Of a DNA stretch of 10,184 nt, positions 1-7,696 are shown in pieces. Where the stretch lies: NCBI GenBank assembly GCA_003660555.1, contig QMUK01000042.1:1-10184 (forward strand), written 5' to 3'. Every line of letters starts with the position of its first letter. Within the stretch, counting starts at the first letter, position 1. Source of the stretch: Thermococci archaeon. GTDB lineage: Archaea > Hadarchaeota > B88-G9. Below the pieces are notes generated by a model. That model did not search any database. It saw nothing but the letters and a program-made list of their open reading frames with translations, and was not told where the DNA came from. A program made the translations under genes and the position numbers.

Positions 1-246
1 CCAACGAAGGTGGAGTGGATAGATTCCCTAGGAAAGAGGAACGCTACGACAGTTAGTGAAGACTCAATTACTGTGAAAATCTCAATGAAGAAGATAGCTC
101 TATTCCTCTTATTAGTTGCCCTATTACTCCTCATTCTCCTAGCCAAATCTATGACTAGAAGGGAGAAAAGACCAAGGATCAGAAGAAGACAAGTAATAAT
201 AAGAGCTAGGCCTAAAACAAGTAGGGGAGGTATTCCAAAGAGATGA
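1..246 (+). CDS. C-terminal part of a membrane-anchored protein (5' end outside window)
   Basis: Frame 1 is open from the first base to a TGA at 244-246, so this is the last 81 codons of a gene that begins upstream. A GTG at position 10 is an in-frame codon but has no sign of being the start. The visible part has a polar segment with an N-A-T glycosylation-type sequon, then one strongly hydrophobic helix (roughly codons 30-48, rich in Leu, Ile and Val), then a very basic tail full of Arg and Lys. This is the layout of an extracytoplasmic domain held by a C-terminal transmembrane helix with a basic cytoplasmic stop-transfer tail. The family cannot be named from this part. It overlaps mptE by 4 nt (ATGA), which suggests translational coupling in one operon. 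Confidence 0.6.
   Translation, partial: PTKVEWIDSLGKRNATTVSEDSITVKISMKKIALFLLLVALLLLILLAKSMTRREKRPRIRRRQVIIRARPKTSRGGIPKR
224..231 (+). promoter_or_regulatory. Shine-Dalgarno for mptE
   Basis: GGGGAGGT lies 11 nt before the ATG at 243. It sits inside the end of the preceding membrane-protein gene and supports the ATG that overlaps that gene's stop codon. Confidence 0.5.
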
Positions 247-920
247 ATAGCAAATTGAAGAGTAGATACGCTTGGATATCCCGTCTTTTGGATCTAGACT
301 TCAGCGCAGACTTCTTGGCATCCAAGTATCTCTCTGAGAGAATTGAGATGAGCATAGATGACCTACCCTCAATCGGGAAGAGAGCCATAGTATTGGGGGC
401 AGGTCCATCTTTGGAGGAATTCAGAGGAGGAAAAGGGAAAATAGTTGCCTCGGATGGATCAGCTAAATTTCTGATGGAAAGGGGAAGAGTCCCGGATTTG
501 GTAATCACTGATTTAGACGGCCTCACTCCTAGGTTTATCAGATCATTATTCGAGAAGGGGTCTGAAATAGTGATACACGCCCACGGAGATAACCTAAACA
601 GAATAAAGGATCTATCGAAAGAAATAGACCTTTCAAATTTCTTCGGGACGACCCAAGTTCTTGAAATGGGCAATCTCTTCAATCCGGGGGGATTCACGGA
701 CGGAGATAGGGCCTTCCTGATTTCCTTGGAATCCGGAGCGGAAATAATAGAAATGTTCGGGATGGACTTCGGTAGCATAGTAGGGAAATATTCAAAACCT
801 TGGATCAGAAGAGAGACTAGAGCCAGTGAAAGAAAAATGAAAAAACTGAAAATAGCTAAAAAAATAATAAATGATAATTTATGGAGAGCTAAATCAGTCC
901 ATTTCAGAAGAAGTCGGTAA
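243..920 (+). CDS. mptE: 6-hydroxymethyl-7,8-dihydropterin pyrophosphokinase, MptE type (DUF115)
   Basis: Predicted to transfer pyrophosphate from ATP to 6-hydroxymethyl-7,8-dihydropterin in archaeal pterin (folate or methanopterin) synthesis; cytosolic. The 225-residue protein shows the archaeal MptE/DUF115 motif series in order: GAGPSLE (52-58), SDGSAKFLM (70-78), PDLVITDLDG (84-93), IHAHGDN (111-117), GTTQ (135-138), GGFTDGDRA (149-157) and GMDFG (173-177). The acidic residues of ITDLDG, HGDN and DGDRA are the expected metal and substrate ligands of this family. The length is typical. The ATG overlaps the stop of the upstream gene and has an SD 11 nt away. The 3' end overlaps the convergent nreA stop by 17 nt. 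The last 30 or so residues are Lys/Arg-rich. The identification rests on motifs seen in the sequence; the reaction comes from knowledge of the family. Confidence 0.87.
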   Translation: MNSKLKSRYAWISRLLDLDFSADFLASKYLSERIEMSIDDLPSIGKRAIVLGAGPSLEEFRGGKGKIVASDGSAKFLMERGRVPDLVITDLDGLTPRFIRSLFEKGSEIVIHAHGDNLNRIKDLSKEIDLSNFFGTTQVLEMGNLFNPGGFTDGDRAFLISLESGAEIIEMFGMDFGSIVGKYSKPWIRRETRASERKMKKLKIAKKIINDNLWRAKSVHFRRSR

Positions 921-2166
921 TTCTCTTTTGTTGGAGTATTTCTCTGAGAAGAATTCCGTTTTTCATCCACTCCTCTGGGGGAATCCTCAGCTTGTATCTC
1001 AAGAAATTCAACAGGTCTTTTACTTCCTCTAGCTTAACCGCTTCTCTGGACAAAGCCTCTCTGACAGATTCTCTGACTAGCCAGACTCCAAGTGGCATGA
1101 GATATTCGGGATAAGCCTCTCTTAGAATTAATACAGAAGCTTGCCTCTTCTCACTTACTAATTTCTCCAGAACAGCCAGTCTTGCTGCGTAGTAACAACC
1201 ACCTATTTGGGCATACGTGCTCCTACCAGAGAACGGCTCCCAGTCCGATAGGACATAAGTCCTCTTGCCGAACGGATTCCAAGTAGTCCCAGGATACCAA
1301 GCCTCCATACTCTCGTATTTCCATGCACCAGGAAACATGATTATCAGAAATCTGTTCCCTAGGGCATTGAACTCGTGTATCCTTATTTCTTCTATCGTCT
1401 TGAAACTCTTGATTTCCTTGGATAATTCTTTCCCCAGAGAATCGTCCACAGCTGTTATGCTCAATCTAGTCGGAACTATCCTCCTTTTAGATTTAAGACC
1501 GAGCATTCCCAGACTGAATACCCTCTGGATATCGTAAACGCTCTCTCCTCTTTCGTATAGAAAGCGAATTGCTTCCCTGGCTGGCATGTCCTCTTCGTAG
1601 TACACCTTCTCTACACTCCTGTTGGATCCCCTCTGGGAGTAGTCTATCTCCAAAAGTGGAGCAGATGGACCAATTGGCTGAATTTCGTCACTTAACTCTA
1701 TTTTAGAGCGAGGAGCTCTCTTTAGAGTCATTTCTACATCCACTGACTTCTTGGAGAGGTTTATCTCTCTTATTTCATCTATAGTCTTTTCTATTTTTTC
1801 AGGATATCCGCCTATTAGCTCATATCTCATATCTACTATCTCCTTTAGGTCCATGTGTATCCATCTTCCCTCTGGATTTGAGTAAACCGAAGTGTCACCG
1901 AATTTCTCGTTCGGAACCTGGATAGAGACCCTCATGCTCCTACTTCCTATGAACACACTTGGAGGAGATGCCCCCTCTATGTTCCTTTTACTTGACGCGT
2001 GTTTAAAATAAGACGAAATCTTGACCAGTATTGGACACTCTCTTTTTCCACATAATAGCTTAGTTCCTTTGCACTTAACACAGATGCTTTTTCCTGGGAT
2101 GACCTCCATTAGGGAAGATATTACAGCTAGTTTCTTACTGGGAACCCTTATTACTGAGCCACTCAT
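904..2166 (-). CDS. nreA: Archaeal DNA repair protein NreA with C-terminal PCNA-interacting motif
   Basis: NreA proteins are archaeal repair factors linked to survival of DNA damage and bound to the sliding clamp PCNA. Two hallmarks are visible. Near the N-terminus there is a zinc-ribbon-like cluster, C-x2-C-x6-C-x4-C (ICVKCKG then LLCGKRECP). At the extreme C-terminus, QKRITDFF fits the PIP-box pattern Q-x-x-(I/L)-x-x-F-F. The body contains the family-like stretch GGCYYAARLAVLEKL and a Trp/Pro-rich segment (WYPGTTWNPFGKRTYVL). Length is about 420 residues, as expected. The start is uncertain. ATG at 2166 has GGAG 3 nt upstream, ATG at 2199 adds 11 residues and overlaps the Nudix gene, and ATG at 2109 would start just before the zinc cluster. 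The gene is divergent from the Nudix gene and convergent with mptE. The family role is known; the exact repair pathway is not. Confidence 0.85.
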   Translation of the reverse strand: MSGSVIRVPSKKLAVISSLMEVIPGKSICVKCKGTKLLCGKRECPILVKISSYFKHASSKRNIEGASPPSVFIGSRSMRVSIQVPNEKFGDTSVYSNPEGRWIHMDLKEIVDMRYELIGGYPEKIEKTIDEIREINLSKKSVDVEMTLKRAPRSKIELSDEIQPIGPSAPLLEIDYSQRGSNRSVEKVYYEEDMPAREAIRFLYERGESVYDIQRVFSLGMLGLKSKRRIVPTRLSITAVDDSLGKELSKEIKSFKTIEEIRIHEFNALGNRFLIIMFPGAWKYESMEAWYPGTTWNPFGKRTYVLSDWEPFSGRSTYAQIGGCYYAARLAVLEKLVSEKRQASVLILREAYPEYLMPLGVWLVRESVREALSREAVKLEEVKDLLNFLRYKLRIPPEEWMKNGILLREILQQKRITDFF

Positions 2167-2188
2167 GTGCTCCAGTTGGGTGGAAAGC

Positions 2189-2629
2189 GTGAAAAACATT
2201 AGGGAGCATCCCCCTTATCCGATACCCTCTGTGGGAGTGGTCCTAATACACGAAAACAGGGTTTTACTGATAAGAAGAGCAAAAGATCCTGGACTTGGGG
2301 AGTGGAGCATCCCCGGTGGGGTTATAGAAGTAGGAGAAACAATCAAGGACGCTGCTGAGAGGGAGCTGAAGGAGGAGTGCAACCTGAAGTGTTCAATTCT
2401 GGGTATAGTTGGCGTTTCCGAGAGAATAGATAGGGACTCTAGGGGGATCAGGACACACTACATCATATTCGACTTACTCGCAGAGAACCCAACAGGAGAT
2501 CTCACTCTATCAGAGGAAGAGGTAATGGAAGCGAAATGGGTCCCGAGGAAGAATCTAGGAAAATACCTTGATGAGGACACACTCACCATAGTGGAAAGGG
2601 GCTTCGAGAGGAAATTCCTACCGTTGTGA
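2189..2629 (+). CDS. Nudix hydrolase (MutT/ADP-ribose pyrophosphatase-like)
   Basis: A small hydrolase expected to cleave nucleoside diphosphates linked to another group X; the substrate cannot be told from sequence. The Nudix box is at about residues 44-66: G-x5-E-x7-R-E-L-x-E-E, with Gly of the usual final E-E-x-G-U replaced by Asn (EECNL). Upstream is the typical W-S-I-P-G-G entry strand, and the N-terminal strand VGVVLI precedes LLIRRAKDPG. The length of about 146 residues is normal for a single Nudix domain. I prefer GTG at 2189 because GGTGGA lies 6 nt upstream and the domain begins within a few residues. GTG at 2180 and ATG at 2165 are alternatives. The gene diverges from nreA with no room for a conventional promoter between them, and no TATA box is evident. 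An inverted repeat follows its stop. Confidence 0.85.
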   Translation: MKNIREHPPYPIPSVGVVLIHENRVLLIRRAKDPGLGEWSIPGGVIEVGETIKDAAERELKEECNLKCSILGIVGVSERIDRDSRGIRTHYIIFDLLAENPTGDLTLSEEEVMEAKWVPRKNLGKYLDEDTLTIVERGFERKFLPL

Positions 2630-2639
2630 GAATCAAAAA

Positions 2640-2687
2640 TTGTGCCCGGAGCCTCGGTAGGAGGTGGGGCCATGCCCTCGGGCACAA
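2640..2687. repeat. 9-bp perfect inverted repeat flanked by a second 6-bp inverted repeat
   Basis: TTGTGCCCG (2640-2648) pairs perfectly with CGGGCACAA (2679-2687). Outside it GAATCA (2630-2635) pairs with TGATTC (2691-2696). Inside it CCTC (2652-2655) can pair with GAGG (2661-2664), and GGG (2667-2669) with CCC (2675-2677). The result is a compact branched structure on either strand. It could act as a terminator between the Nudix gene and the tRNA, as a small RNA, or as a translational hairpin (see separate entries). Confidence 0.7.
2660..2666 (+). promoter_or_regulatory. Strong Shine-Dalgarno ahead of a 13-codon ORF
   Basis: GGAGGTG is a perfect match to the anti-SD of archaeal 16S rRNA and ends 5 nt before the ATG at 2672. 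It would be partly sequestered by pairing of GAGG (2661-2664) with CCTC (2652-2655). Confidence 0.35.
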
Positions 2688-2713
2688 TCCTGATTCAACT
2701 TAGGACTATTTAA
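2672..2713 (+). CDS. Possible 13-residue micro-ORF (MPSGTILIQLRTI)
   Basis: ATG at 2672 follows a perfect SD at ideal spacing and is read for 13 codons to TAA at 2711-2713. The peptide has a hydrophobic centre. Its start region lies within the 2640-2687 inverted repeat, so the RNA fold would control access to the ribosome site. No plus-strand gene follows, so it is not a leader peptide for anything visible. It would have to be transcribed with the Nudix gene. The SD and ATG may equally be a by-product of a minus-strand RNA. This is a low-confidence candidate recorded because of the quality of the SD. Confidence 0.2.
   Translation: MPSGTILIQLRTI
2707..2713 (-). promoter_or_regulatory. TATA-like box before the candidate small RNA
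   Basis: TTAAATA on the minus strand is centred about 23 nt upstream of the stem that begins at 2687. The match is to the archaeal box A in an A/T-rich spacer, so chance occurrence is possible. Confidence 0.3.
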
Positions 2714-2773
2714 CTATTGCGAGAGATCTCAATACATTGGAATTATCATCATATTAAGAATGTAATCTGAAGG

Positions 2774-2850
2774 TGGCGGGCCCGCGGGGATTTGAACCCC
2801 GGACCAGCAGGTTAAGAGCCTGCCGCTCTGCCAGACTGAGCTACGGGCCC
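2774..2850 (-). tRNA. tRNA-Lys (anticodon CTT), CCA encoded
   Basis: The minus strand folds as a complete cloverleaf. The acceptor stem GGGCCCG pairs with CGGGCCC, TA is at positions 8-9, and the D stem is GCTC/GAGC. The anticodon stem GCAGG/CCTGC encloses the loop CTCTTAA (anticodon CTT, reading AAG). The T stem CGGGG/CCCCG has the loop TTCAAAT, and the discriminator is G. CCA is encoded at the 3' end (2776-2774). No intron is present. It has its own TATA box and lies downstream of hypE. Confidence 0.96.
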
Positions 2851-2872
2851 CCATTCTATCGGAGCAATATGA

Positions 2873-2880
2873 CTTTTAAG
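2873..2880 (-). promoter_or_regulatory. TATA box of tRNA-Lys
   Basis: CTTAAAAG on the minus strand is centred about 26 nt before the first tRNA base at 2850, the normal archaeal box A spacing, with purines just upstream as expected for a BRE. Confidence 0.6.
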
Positions 2881-2996
2881 CATTTCTATTAGACGTTATC
2901 GTCCAATTCGTCTTGTTCTATCAATGTTCAGACCTAAAGTAACCGAACTTGAGAGATAATACATAGATCAACGTAATAAATGGTTATTCGAATGAG

Positions 2997-4028
2997 TTAA
3001 CATATCCTAGGAACAGGATCTCCAATTGGAGGAGGAATGACCCTCTTTCCTCCGACGACAGTCTCCATTACGACTCCCTTCACATCTGAAGAGACTTCTC
3101 CTATTATTTCTGCATTTTTCCCGTATTTGTTTTTTCTAATTTCCTCCAGTACACTGTCAGCCATTTCCTCTACTACTCCAATTATTATTTTTCCTTCGTT
3201 GCCTATTTCTAGAGGATCTATTCCCAATAGTTCGCAAGTCCCTTTTACTTCCTCCCTTATAGGCAAATTTTCCTCTTTTATCAGTATTCCTGTTTTACTT
3301 TTTTGAGACCACTCGTTCAGTACTCCTGCAACTCCTCCTCTTGTAGGGTCCTTCATGGCAACTATTCCTCCGATTTTCAGACATTTCTCCACTAAATTGT
3401 TGAGAGGCGCTACGTCACTCTCTATTCTGGATAGATCGTACCTCTCAGAGAGTATAGATGCCCCGTGATCTCCTATATTTCCAGATATTATGATCTTATC
3501 CCCAGGAGACAGGTTCGAGTCAAGGGGCCATTTGTAGACTCTTCCAGTGTACTCCTTCACTACCTGAAAGTTCCGATCTAGATATTCGCTTCTCTTCCCT
3601 ATACCAGAGGTATTTACAATCAGGGAGTCAACTCCTCCCCTTTCCACTACTTTGGTATCTCCAGTTATGACAGGCACTTCAGCTTCAAGGCAGGTCTCCC
3701 TTACGCTCCTCATTACTCTGGACACGTCTTCAATGGAGAACCCCTCTTCTATCACCAAGGAAAGTGAGAGAGCAATTGGACTCGCGCCCATTACCGAGAG
3801 ATCGTTCACTGTTCCCGATACTGAGAGTCTTCCTATGTCCCCCCCTGGGAAGAAGATGGGCTTCACCGTGTAGGAATCAGTGGTGAAGACTATTCCATCT
3901 ATTATTCCGGAGTCTTCCATCTCATCTAAACCGACCTCACCAGAGCTCCACAGTTCTTTCAGGACGAACTCTCTCAGGAATTGAAACATTTTCTCTCCGC
4001 CAGCCCCGTGTTCCATTAGAATCTCCAT
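2997..4028 (-). CDS. hypE: Carbamoyl dehydratase HypE (NiFe hydrogenase maturation)
   Basis: HypE carries a carbamoyl group on its C-terminal Cys and dehydrates it with ATP to make the cyanide ligands of the NiFe centre, working with HypF, HypC and HypD. The sequence ends in PRIC, the required terminal Cys (residue 343). AIR-synthase-type nucleotide-binding features are in place: EHGAGGEKM (6-14), TTDSYTV (49-55), GTVNDLSVMGASP (72-84), TGDTKVV (122-128), SGNIGDHG (182-189) and DPTRGGVAGVLNE (227-239). Between SGIG (141-144) and PGDKII the chain seems about 15 residues longer than usual. ATG at 4028 keeps the first beta strand and has GGGGGT upstream; ATG at 4016 would instead share one base with the preceding stop (TAATG). 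It overlaps the radical SAM gene by 13 nt. No other hyp or hydrogenase gene is in the window. Confidence 0.95.
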   Translation of the reverse strand: MEILMEHGAGGEKMFQFLREFVLKELWSSGEVGLDEMEDSGIIDGIVFTTDSYTVKPIFFPGGDIGRLSVSGTVNDLSVMGASPIALSLSLVIEEGFSIEDVSRVMRSVRETCLEAEVPVITGDTKVVERGGVDSLIVNTSGIGKRSEYLDRNFQVVKEYTGRVYKWPLDSNLSPGDKIIISGNIGDHGASILSERYDLSRIESDVAPLNNLVEKCLKIGGIVAMKDPTRGGVAGVLNEWSQKSKTGILIKEENLPIREEVKGTCELLGIDPLEIGNEGKIIIGVVEEMADSVLEEIRKNKYGKNAEIIGEVSSDVKGVVMETVVGGKRVIPPPIGDPVPRIC

Positions 4029-5656
4029 CTCATCAACCCCCTTATTATGGACAGAGATGAAGGAGGAGTCAGTTCCTCCTTTAAACTTATTTCTGGCTCG
4101 AAATCAGAGAAGGGCACTTCTGGTTCAATACCTTTTTCTATTAGAGAGTCTATCTCGTTCATTAGTTCTTTCGACTTCCTTATTCTTTCGATTAGTTCGA
4201 TTCCAGAGTCCTCTGGTATTAAGTTCATCTTGATTTTTTCTCTTATTAGGAGTTCCGCTCCATCATAGGTTGCCCTTACTATCTCGTCCCTAGACATCTT
4301 AGCTTCATAGTTCAGAGAGTATTTCCAGCTGTACTGCTTCAAGGCATAGCAATATCTCCTTAAGTCCTTCCATAGTATTTTGTATCCCACCCCTTTTTCG
4401 AAAGCCAAGCTTCCTGGATCCACATAGGGCGCCAATGGGGCTAGGAAGCAATCAACTTTTTTTGAGTCATCCTTCTTGTTGAACTCCTCCATGATTCTCC
4501 CAGCATACTTTGGAATCCCCATAGCTGAGAAGAAATCCTGTTTTGCCAATCCAATCATGAAATACAGATCTATTCTTCTAAAGGGAAGTTTTGAGGCCTT
4601 CTTTAGAAATCTCTCTAAGGAGTTGTTTGAATATCCTCTTCCTTGGAACTTCCTGACCTCTTGGTCTTGCGATTCCGGAGATATTTGAATATAGACCTCG
4701 GGAGAACAGGATGAAGCCTCTCTAAGAAATTCCTCCCCTGGAGGATAAAACACCTCAATTATAACAGGTATTTCCACACCTTCTTCTCTCATCAGAGAGA
4801 ACAATCTCTTCCATCTCTTCCTTCCACCGATCTGCAGGTCACCAATCAGGAATATTGGGGCTTTTAGTATCGAGAAAGATTCTATCTCTCTCAAGATTAC
4901 CTCGGGAGATTTCAGAACAGGACACTTTCTATTGCATATCAGGGAGTAGGAGAACTTCGATCCCCCGCAGGATATGCAGTTGTACTCACATCCCTTCATG
5001 GTGAGAGTTGCCCCAACGAAGTTCTTGGATCTATAGGGCATGTAGTCCTTGATTCTGAACAGAGCAGATTTGAATACCTCCTTGAAGTCTATGTAGTACT
5101 CATCTATTTCTCCCGGAACAAAACTGAGCGGATTCACCCTTGTTTTCCCGTTGATTCTGTAAGATAAATTGGGAATTTCTCCTAATTTTCTTTCATCTTC
5201 TTTGTTTTCCAGCAAAAGTTGAATTAGAGGCTCTGTCGTGTCACCCCTCAGGACGAAGTCCACGTCCCATAGTTCCATTATCTCCCTGTGGTAGTACGAG
5301 GAACTGAGTCCCCCCAAGAGGACATTCTTCTCCTGTTCCTTCAAAATGGAAGAGACTCTCATTACTCCATTTGCATGTACAAGCCAGTGAAAGTCTATAC
5401 CGAAGAGATCTGCATCTATTTTCCTGAGACGCTTCTCTGGATTAAATTTCCTTTCTGTGAGCATTCTGTAGGCCAAATTCAATATCTTGACTTTGAATCC
5501 CCTCTTCCTTAGGTAAGAGAGAATAGACAGGAATCCAATTGGATACATTTCAAATATCTGGTTCGAGGGTATCACGTCGCTTATTGGACCAAATATCATG
5601 CCACCTTCTCTGAAATCCATTACGCTTGGAGTATGGATCAGAACCAAATCATACAT
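4016..5656 (-). CDS. B12-binding domain / radical SAM protein (Ta0216-like)
   Basis: A 546-residue protein with an N-terminal cobalamin-binding-like Rossmann region (about 1-150), including YPIGFLSILSYLRKRGF (38-54), FGIDFHWLVHANG (85-97) and LLGGLSSSYY (113-122). A radical SAM core follows, with the cluster motif C223-x3-C227-x2-C230 (CEYNCISCGG). Two further Cys (C241, C245, in CNRKCP) could be ligands of something else. The pattern fits the archaeal B12/radical SAM family often called Ta0216-like, whose reaction I do not know. The SAM core would bind a 4Fe-4S cluster and generate a 5'-deoxyadenosyl radical. Its SD (GAGGGT, 5667-5662) overlaps the D box of a C/D sRNA. It lies 59 nt after tyrS and overlaps hypE, so operon membership is likely. 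A link to hydrogenase maturation is only suggested by position. Confidence 0.85.
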   Translation of the reverse strand: MYDLVLIHTPSVMDFREGGMIFGPISDVIPSNQIFEMYPIGFLSILSYLRKRGFKVKILNLAYRMLTERKFNPEKRLRKIDADLFGIDFHWLVHANGVMRVSSILKEQEKNVLLGGLSSSYYHREIMELWDVDFVLRGDTTEPLIQLLLENKEDERKLGEIPNLSYRINGKTRVNPLSFVPGEIDEYYIDFKEVFKSALFRIKDYMPYRSKNFVGATLTMKGCEYNCISCGGSKFSYSLICNRKCPVLKSPEVILREIESFSILKAPIFLIGDLQIGGRKRWKRLFSLMREEGVEIPVIIEVFYPPGEEFLREASSCSPEVYIQISPESQDQEVRKFQGRGYSNNSLERFLKKASKLPFRRIDLYFMIGLAKQDFFSAMGIPKYAGRIMEEFNKKDDSKKVDCFLAPLAPYVDPGSLAFEKGVGYKILWKDLRRYCYALKQYSWKYSLNYEAKMSRDEIVRATYDGAELLIREKIKMNLIPEDSGIELIERIRKSKELMNEIDSLIEKGIEPEVPFSDFEPEISLKEELTPPSSLSIIRGLMRWRF

Positions 5657-5661
5657 TTCCG

Positions 5662-5667
5662 ACCCTC
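5662..5667 (-). promoter_or_regulatory. Shine-Dalgarno of the radical SAM gene, overlapping the sRNA D box
   Basis: GAGGGT on the minus strand ends 5 nt before the ATG at 5656. Its first two bases (GA) are the last two of the box D CTGA at 5669-5666, so a kink-turn formed by boxes C and D would include or crowd the ribosome site. Confidence 0.55.
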
Positions 5668-5716
5668 AGATACTCCGAGGCTCATCACAGCTCAGAGCGC
5701 TCGCTAATCATCACCC
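5663..5716 (-). ncRNA. Box C/D guide sRNA (2'-O-methylation guide)
   Basis: The minus strand of the tyrS/radical SAM spacer contains, in exact order: box C GTGATGA (5714-5708), a 12-nt guide TTAGCGAGCGCT (5707-5696), box D' CTGA (5695-5692), a 3-nt linker GCT, box C' GTGATGA (5688-5682), a 12-nt guide GCCTCGGAGTAT (5681-5670) and box D CTGA (5669-5666). All four boxes are perfect and both guides have the canonical 12-nt length of archaeal dual guides. By the N+5 rule the D' guide would direct methylation of the C at position 5 of target AGCGCUCGCUAA, and the D guide the U at position 5 of target AUACUCCGAGGC. No long terminal stem is visible, which is common in archaea. The RNA starts at the tyrS stop codon and ends just before the next ATG, so it is probably cut out of the operon transcript. 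The targets were not identified. Confidence 0.88.
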
Positions 5717-6843
5717 TAGGAGACCCCTAGCTCCTTCATCTCCTCTATGTATTTTCTCCCTTTACCATTTGAGAAGTACTCCCTCGTTTCCCTTAATATT
5801 TTCGAGATGCTCCCTGCTATAGCACTCTTTAGGTCCGCCGGATGGACCCTCCTAGCTAGATATTCCCTTTTTAAATCGTTATATCTTTCGAACTTGAGTA
5901 CCTCCCCTGTTTTATCGTTCACTATGGTCATCTCTCCCAGAATTGGAAATACAACGTATTCGGCAAGCTCTAAAATCGGATTTAGCTCAGTTTCTCCCAT
6001 GGGGCAGTAAGCCTTATTTATCTTTCTTTTTATTTCTTCTGGCGAGTCATGGACGAAAATAGCACTTTCTGGTTTGGATTTAGACATTTTGACTTCTATT
6101 ATTTCTCTTTCGAATTCATCTCTTCTTCCAGAAGCTTTGGCATCTGCTAGCACCCTCCTTTGTCTCTCCGTGATGTGCATACCCATTAACAGATGGTGAT
6201 GAACTGCCAATGGCTTATATCCGAATTCCCTCTCTCCAATATCTATTGCTATGACGTGAGCCTTTCTCTGGTCCATTCCACCGTGAGCTAAGTTCACTCC
6301 CAGTGAGAATATGTCTGAAACCTGCATCGGAACATACAACAATTGAGAGAAGTCTAGCCTCTCTCCTTCCTTTCTACCCATTATTGTTATTGACCTTTTG
6401 ACCCTAGAAAGAGTAGTTCTTCTCGAAATTTTTATTAGGTTTTCTAAATACTCTATTCCAAGTTTTTCGTACAGTTCTGACCCTAAAATGAACTCAGTCT
6501 TACTTGGATTACCTCCACTAACTTCTAAAACTTTTTCGAGAGCTTTTCTGAAGTATCCCCCAGCAATTTTTCTTATGGTATCTAGATCACCCCCCAGCTT
6601 TCTGTTTATCCATGAGTGATAATCCGCTAGGAATACTTTAGTCTTGATCCCAGCTTTTTGAAAATCCGAGACTTTCTTCATGCATATTAGTCCAGTGCCC
6701 AAGTGGACGAAGCCTGAGATTTCGAAACCTATATAATGTACGAGTTTTTCTCCTCTCTCTAGGTAGGAAAGTAGCCTCTCCTCCGTTAGCACTTCCTCTG
6801 TTGGTTTCTCCTTTATTAGCTTTAGAACATCCTCTGGTTGCAT
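5716..6843 (-). CDS. tyrS: Tyrosyl-tRNA synthetase, archaeal type
   Basis: A class I synthetase that activates tyrosine with ATP and charges tRNA-Tyr. The 375-residue protein has the archaeal/eukaryotic TyrRS form. [13 protein letters not shown] (37-49) contains the HIGH-like HLG and the tyrosine-contacting Tyr37. YVPMQVSD (170-177) supplies Tyr170, Gln174 and Asp177. GGMDQRKAH (188-196) precedes KMSKS at 252-256, and [18 protein letters not shown] follows. The C-terminal helical domain is short, as in archaeal enzymes, with no S4 domain. The Tyr/Gln/Asp set argues against TrpRS, the nearest relative. The start at 6843 is supported by a TATA box about 26 nt upstream, implying a leaderless mRNA. 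It is the first gene of a minus-strand operon with the C/D sRNA, the radical SAM gene and probably hypE. Confidence 0.95.
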
Positions 6844-6864
6844 GTCTCCCGCTATCCTCGAGAG

Positions 6865-6874
6865 ATATTTAAAA
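6865..6874 (-). promoter_or_regulatory. TATA box of the tyrS operon (leaderless start)
   Basis: TTTTAAATAT on the minus strand is centred about 26 nt before the tyrS ATG, so transcription should begin at or next to the start codon. The decayed insertion element begins only about 10 nt upstream of it. Confidence 0.65.
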
Positions 6875-7429
6875 CTTAGGTGTAGGGGTTCTGTTGAATC
6901 TTAGGGTGTTGCATTTGGTGTGGTAAAAATTAGGTTGATTTTTTATGAATTCCAAGCTTTTCCTGAGTAAATCCAACCACTTGTTGTTATCCAAGTTCAA
7001 GTCTATTTTCGCCTTCTCTGCTGGAGTTCTGTCATCCAACCACATATTCGGGCGAATGAAGTTGTAGTAAATCATGTATCCATTGATTATTGGGTATTCT
7101 CAATTTTAACCCTCTCATCACTTTCCCTCTATCTCTCAACTAAATTGTTGTTTAGCTGTCCTCTCCATCTAACATTGCTTATGTGCTTGCAACTCCTATG
7201 ATGTCCCAGAATTCTTTGTTAAACGCTTTGCGATGACTCTTAAGCCATCTGTTATAATAAACTTTGACTTCTTCTTTCCAATTTGCTTTGCCATTCTAAA
7301 TGCTCTTCTTGCATCTTCGATTTTTCTTTCCCTTGATATCACGCTTACAAGCTGAAACATCATCCCTTCATCTATGACATTCCAAAGCCATTTTCAATCA
7401 TCAGCAATCTTAACCATCATTTCATCAGA
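6869..7429 (-). pseudogene. Transposase pseudogene (DDE, IS6/IS240-like)
   Basis: Reading the minus strand across frames restores a recognisable DDE transposase. The first block has SDEMMVKIADD (first Asp) from 7429, then a stop where Trp or Tyr is expected, then KWLWNVIDEGMMFQLVSVIS and FIITDGL (second Asp). A frameshift leads to LKSHRKAFNKEFWD, and another to HISNVRWRGQLNNNLVER (catalytic Glu in LVER). After further in-frame stops comes IYYNFIRPNMWLDDRTPAEKA, the usual C-terminal YN-x-IRPH-like motif. At least three stops and two frameshifts are needed, and the DNA-binding N-terminus is absent. It cannot make a functional enzyme. The remaining 68-codon frame (7075-6869) is only its tail. 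Confidence 0.8.
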
Positions 7430-7440
7430 CTACAACGCAT
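6885..7440 (-). mobile_element. Remnant of an IS6/IS240-like insertion sequence
   Basis: The block holds a decayed transposase on the minus strand. Its tyrS-proximal boundary reads GGGGTTCTGTTG (6885-6896), similar to the GG-x-x-CTGTTG type of IS6-family ends. I could not find the inverted partner on the far side, so the distal end and the 5' part of the transposase gene appear lost. The family call rests on the transposase motifs; the end call is tentative. Confidence 0.5.
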
Positions 7441-7696
7441 GACTTCACTTCGTAATTCCAGCGACAGTGAGAATAAACAATAAACCGATCTGAATATGAG
7501 GCAAGTCAAAAAGTACATGACGCCGGCTACTCTCACCATCGTTCGCTATGTATAACAGCATATTCGAATTCACTAGCACTTCGTCCGAGTTCCTCGCTTT
7601 GCTCAGAACTTCGTTTATCCACAAAACGTAGTATGCACTCGGCTTCAGACGCTGGGAATGAAAAGGATTAAAATTAGATAGAGGAAGACATAACCT
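7441..7696. other. Spacer between the transposase remnant and the methyltransferase; no recognisable gene
   Basis: This stretch of about 256 nt has a weak minus-strand reading frame of 93 codons whose translation I do not recognise and which lacks an evident SD. It may be a second decayed element or the scrambled 5' part of the same insertion sequence. An A/T-rich segment near 7668-7677 (GATTAAAATT) is a possible box A for the methyltransferase gene. Confidence 0.4.

Follow-up and report, generated by a model that had tools for sequence, protein, structure and literature searches.

The window, by which is meant the whole 10,184-nt stretch of archaeal DNA that was analysed, carries on its minus strand a tyrosine--tRNA ligase gene, tyrS (NF006330, 412.6 bits against a cut-off of 220), followed by a gene for a B12-binding/radical SAM protein of the TIGR04190 family (570.6 bits against a cut-off of 500), in which PF02310 and PF04055 were also matched. 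As the TIGR04190 profile match begins at residue 3, the ATG at 5656 is supported as the start of the radical SAM gene. The spacer between the two genes is 59 nt long (5715-5657), and 49 of these 59 nt belong to an element that was read as a C/D box sRNA from its sequence, a genome-wide pattern count and Rfam matches. The features, 5′ to 3′ on the minus strand, are as follows.

5716-6843, minus strand: tyrS, tyrosine--tRNA ligase, the upstream neighbour
5718-5716, minus strand: tyrS stop codon, TAG
5715, minus strand: single spacer base G between the tyrS stop codon and box C
5666-5714, minus strand: whole C/D box sRNA from box C to box D, 49 nt
5714-5708, minus strand: box C, GTGATGA (RNA GUGAUGA)
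5707-5696, minus strand: D′ guide, 12 nt, TTAGCGAGCGCT (RNA UUAGCGAGCGCU)
5695-5692, minus strand: box D′, CTGA (RNA CUGA)
5691-5689, minus strand: D′-C′ k-loop linker, 3 nt, GCT (RNA GCU)
5688-5682, minus strand: box C′, GTGATGA (RNA GUGAUGA)
5681-5670, minus strand: D guide, 12 nt, GCCTCGGAGTAT (RNA GCCUCGGAGUAU)
5669-5666, minus strand: box D, CTGA (RNA CUGA)
5667-5663, minus strand: GAGGG, putative Shine-Dalgarno sequence of the radical SAM gene
5665-5657, minus strand: GGGTCGGAA, between box D and the radical SAM ATG
5656-5654, minus strand: radical SAM start codon, ATG
4016-5656, minus strand: TIGR04190-family B12-binding/radical SAM protein, the downstream neighbour

All four boxes are at consensus (RUGAUGA and CUGA) with ideal spacing, and guides of 12 and 12 nt fit the range of about 10-12 nt typical of archaeal C/D sRNAs (PMC4644070). 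When the sequence was read again, the box anatomy, strand, guide lengths, linker and both predicted target strings were found to be as the first-pass annotation had written them. Its statement that the element "exactly fills" the spacer holds for nearly the whole gap and is slightly generous, as 6 nt remain between 5663 and the ATG; the 5′ end that it gave, 5716, falls on the final base of the tyrS stop codon, outside the spacer. Judging from the sequence, the mature RNA is likely to end at about 5663 and 5717.

Evidence for a C/D box sRNA gene

The genome (1,295,439 bp) was searched with a strict C-D′-C′ pattern, RTGATGA-N8-16-CTGA-N2-20-RTGATGA, and with the reversed pattern as a control. 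The strict pattern gave 4 matches and the reversed pattern 0. When 397 kb of this genome was scanned more loosely, with weighted boxes, three near-maximal elements came up, the tyrS-linked one among them, with none of weaker score in between; the two matches to the reversed control had far lower scores.

Rfam C/D families, RF00095, RF01139 and RF01147 among them, matched the same span and strand, with E values of 0.0009-0.03 for the ten best. No Rfam family reached its gathering cut-off, the best score being 26.2 bits against the 45 set for RF00095, as is expected for a new pair of guides. No unusual stability was seen on folding (minimum free energy z = -0.93); C/D sRNAs are not expected to fold stably. 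A terminal stem is not evident, as pairing outside boxes C and D is non-canonical. Fibrillarin (320 bits) and a Nop-family domain protein (235 bits) are encoded in the same genome.

A second MAG contig, about 98-100% identical and bearing the label Candidatus Bathyarchaeota archaeon ex4484_205, carries a letter-identical sRNA, and the tyrS protein encoded there is 100% identical. Compared with window positions 1-7463, about ten stretches of some 40-230 nt are missing from that contig, one of them inside the radical SAM ORF (window 5097-5331); this is probably an assembly artefact. A search for the D-guide pattern in 120 relatives, among which there was no other member of the same family, returned the window and two chance matches without boxes, and no C/D motif was found within 200 nt after tyrS at 18 tyrS loci of more distant archaea. 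A covariance model (R1) was too narrow for a census; its matches were confined to three of the sequences on which it had been trained. As sRNA guides evolve quickly (PMC7994747), non-detection in relatives does not refute conservation beyond that near-identical MAG.

Three of these results could be taken to mean that the four boxes have come together by chance in a short spacer and that there is no gene: the unmet Rfam cut-offs, the lack of distant conservation in the relatives searched and the ordinary minimum free energy, though stable folding is not expected of the class. Such an arrangement is unlikely given 4 real and 0 reversed strict matches in 1.3 Mb, and four consensus boxes at ideal spacing, together with two matches to targets in the correct register (see below), also argue against it, so that chance is a highly improbable explanation. 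On the strength of its sequence, the element is almost certainly the gene of a canonical archaeal C/D box sRNA with two guides, on the strand that codes for tyrS and the radical SAM protein.

With the archaeal C/D box sRNAs of the Sulfolobus/Pyrococcus sR families (RF00095 snoPyro_CD, RF01139 sR2 and RF01147 sR12) it shares consensus C, D′, C′ and D boxes, 12-nt guides, a length of about 50 nt, a short D′-C′ linker and targets that follow the +5 rule. It differs from them in its guides, in scoring below their gathering cut-offs and in having no terminal stem pairs, and no family member with the same guides was found among the named sR families. The sRNA is an ordinary addition to a well-known RNA class, the picture of which is unchanged, and its guide pair is new.

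The remaining strict-pattern sRNAs of the genome are listed here by contig.

C3:36495-36544, minus strand: second C/D sRNA, overlapping a 108-aa ORF at the ORF's 3′ end
C20:1133-1181, plus strand: third C/D sRNA, with a CDS 13 nt downstream
C121:1849 onward, plus strand: fourth C/D sRNA, with irregular D spacing (16 nt)

Genes for tRNA-Asp and tRNA-Lys lie about 190 nt downstream of the C3 sRNA on the same strand. Four C/D sRNAs with intact boxes, as counted by the strict pattern, seem very few: the thermophiles covered in PMC4644070 have 26-128, and Methanococcus maripaludis has 7 there. The exact pattern found 0 or 1 C/D sRNA in each of 27 genomes of the same phylum. As only four were found and most of them have their best matches in 23S domain V, the genome may show which guided methylations survive in a small set. 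For a poorly studied uncultured archaeon, the tyrS-linked element is a credible and previously unlisted guide RNA, with three more beside it.

Predicted targets of the two guides

Dennis et al. (PMC4644070) include the opening base of box D or D′ in guide-target pairing, and the criterion is an unbroken run of nine or more Watson-Crick pairs that takes in the +5 position. The first-pass annotation had proposed searching 16S, 23S and tRNA sequences for the two 12-nt targets, and had named the lack of any rRNA or tRNA match of at least 9 bp among the findings that would speak against its prediction. Both guides gave a match: 11 bp with tRNA-Thr for the D′ guide and 12 bp, including 2 G-U pairs, with 23S rRNA for the D guide.

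The D guide, with the first nucleotide of box D, forms 12 continuous pairs (2 of them G-U) with GGUACUCCGGGG in 23S rRNA, with a duplex energy of -20.7 kcal/mol. The +5 pair is Watson-Crick and its target is U2546, which aligns with E. coli U2441. This nucleotide is five to six nt ahead of the peptidyl-transferase loop (E. coli 2447-2451). The duplex contains only 7 consecutive Watson-Crick pairs, which is under the strict nine-pair rule, and 5 of 300 shuffled D guides also reached 12 pairs. A literature search on U2441 found nothing directly relevant. From this pairing the D guide probably directs 2′-O-methylation (Um) at U2546.

The D′ guide, with the first nucleotide of box D′, forms 11 consecutive Watson-Crick pairs with GAGCGCUCGCU in tRNA-Thr(GGU), with a duplex energy of -22.0 kcal/mol. 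The match is longer than the nine Watson-Crick pairs of Dennis et al. and includes +5, for which the target is position 28 of the tRNA sequence, corresponding to C27 in the standard numbering read from the cloverleaf. Among 42 tRNA sequences tested GAGCGCUCGCU is confined to tRNA-Thr(GGU), and it is absent from the rRNA of the set. Eleven pairs were reached by 3 of 300 shuffled D′ guides. Matches of the D′ guide in 23S rRNA near 2592 and 2251 were dropped, as their 8 bp are ordinary for shuffled guides.

Each of the two target matches is thus better than about 98-99% of the 300 shuffles. As 3/300 and 5/300 shuffles equal them, both targets are plausible and neither is certain, and significances of about 1-2% become modest once the choice of measure and the presence of two guides are counted. 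In a positive control, the same method assigned the D guide of the C3 sRNA to 23S G2353, equivalent to E. coli G2251; this is a known P-loop site, and its guided methylation has been predicted in three archaea.

It is quite possible that the element is a genuine C/D sRNA for which 23S U2441 is the sole real target, and that its D′ guide is an orphan or is aimed elsewhere, the tRNA-Thr match being due to chance, which has a probability of roughly 1% per guide. About one third of the sRNAs studied by Dennis et al. have no convincing rRNA targets (PMC4644070), and in those sRNAs of Pyrobaculum that target a tRNA, one of the guides usually lacks a target (PMC7994747), so that an rRNA target and a tRNA target in one sRNA would apparently be uncommon. 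The literature search also found no report of C27 as a site, or of Cm27 in tRNA-Thr. Against this stand the 11 consecutive Watson-Crick pairs, their correct +5 register and the uniqueness of the match to tRNA-Thr(GGU) among the 42 tRNAs. On balance a role for the D′ guide in directing 2′-O-methylation of tRNA-Thr(GGU), to give Cm27, is favoured, and this is put forward with some reserve.

The concrete sites predicted are 23S U2441 and tRNA-Thr C27 for the tyrS-linked sRNA and the P-loop nucleotide G2251 for the C3 sRNA. The guides of the C20 sRNA match 23S rRNA at 2529 and 2501, near the 23S target of the tyrS-linked sRNA, with 9 Watson-Crick bp each, which is not significant alone. For the D′ guide of the C121 sRNA the match with 23S rRNA is perfect over 12 Watson-Crick bp, at position 239 of this 23S rRNA, which is E. 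coli A251.

Biogenesis and the overlapping Shine-Dalgarno sequence

Guide RNAs that lie between genes and are processed from mRNA are an established archaeal arrangement. In six archaea that have been studied, most C/D sRNA genes overlap a neighbouring ORF or are no more than 25 nt away from one; about a quarter overlap the end of the upstream ORF and many others are within 25 nt of an ORF (PMC7994747). A TATA-like motif was present at only about 20% of these C/D sRNA genes, and in Sulfolobus the internal boxes are by themselves sufficient for maturation (PMC7994747). Given this usual arrangement, and as a promoter of its own would have to lie inside the tyrS coding sequence, it is plausible that the sRNA is processed from the tyrS mRNA, and it is probably made from the tyrS-radical SAM transcript. 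There is a weak A/T-rich stretch, AAAATACAT, inside tyrS at about 5756-5748, which may be a promoter of its own.

The sRNA would then be transcribed as part of the tyrS-radical SAM transcript and bound by L7Ae, Nop5 and fibrillarin via its k-turn and k-loop, and, owing to protection by the RNP, would be trimmed to about 50-55 nt. The resulting RNP would 2′-O-methylate 23S U2546 (E. coli U2441) via the D guide and, probably, C27 of tRNA-Thr(GGU) via the D′ guide. As a whole, this explanation, with a canonical C/D sRNA gene at its core, is given high confidence; origin from the transcript and the 23S target are each probable, and the tRNA-Thr target is somewhat less so.

The mRNA-embedded C/D sRNA genes of Tripp et al. 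2017, as they are described in PMC7994747, are similar in being placed on the coding strand, between the ends of ORFs or overlapping them, with no obvious promoter of their own. Compared with the genes in that description, both neighbours abut here (1 nt after the stop codon and 9 nt before the start codon) and the downstream Shine-Dalgarno sequence overlaps box D.

This sequence, GAGGG (5667-5663), shares its first two bases with the last two of box D and is 6 nt from the radical SAM ATG; the anti-Shine-Dalgarno sequence CCUCC is present at the 3′ end of 16S rRNA. Because of the overlap, excision of the sRNA, or binding of L7Ae to the k-turn, should disable the radical SAM ribosome-binding site on the same transcript. 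The relevance of this for translation of the radical SAM gene is a matter of speculation. There are precedents: L7Ae represses its own mRNA (l7ae) through a k-turn beside the Shine-Dalgarno sequence, which is masked (PMC5539422), and in Sulfolobus an sRNA that overlapped the start of a downstream gene lowered reporter expression, according to the account of Tripp et al. given in PMC7994747. The regulatory k-turns of mRNA 5′ UTRs bound by L7Ae are like the present element in lying next to a Shine-Dalgarno sequence, whereas they are single k-turns without guides and here there are two guides.

The element might accordingly be thought to act mainly in cis, either because L7Ae on the C/D k-turn masks GAGGG and represses the radical SAM gene, or because excision of the sRNA severs the operon, with loss of the ribosome-binding site. 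The position of GAGGG and the two precedents are in keeping with this. A regulatory k-turn, however, needs no D′ and C′ boxes, no exact 12-nt guides and no complementarity to rRNA or tRNA, and these suggest a trans-acting guide, beside which a cis effect could still occur as a side effect. A mainly cis-acting element is therefore considered unlikely, and a guide RNA acting in trans is preferred. It is similarly doubtful that the RNA has a full dual role, coupling as a trans guide the tRNA-Thr site to the 23S site next to the peptidyl transferase centre and serving at the same time as a cis switch, in which formation of the C/D RNP or excision removes the radical SAM Shine-Dalgarno sequence. 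If it did, translation of the radical SAM gene would be tied to the levels of L7Ae or of the guide RNP. The tight packing from stop codon to Shine-Dalgarno sequence makes the locus a clean case for the effect of guide excision on the surrounding mRNA.
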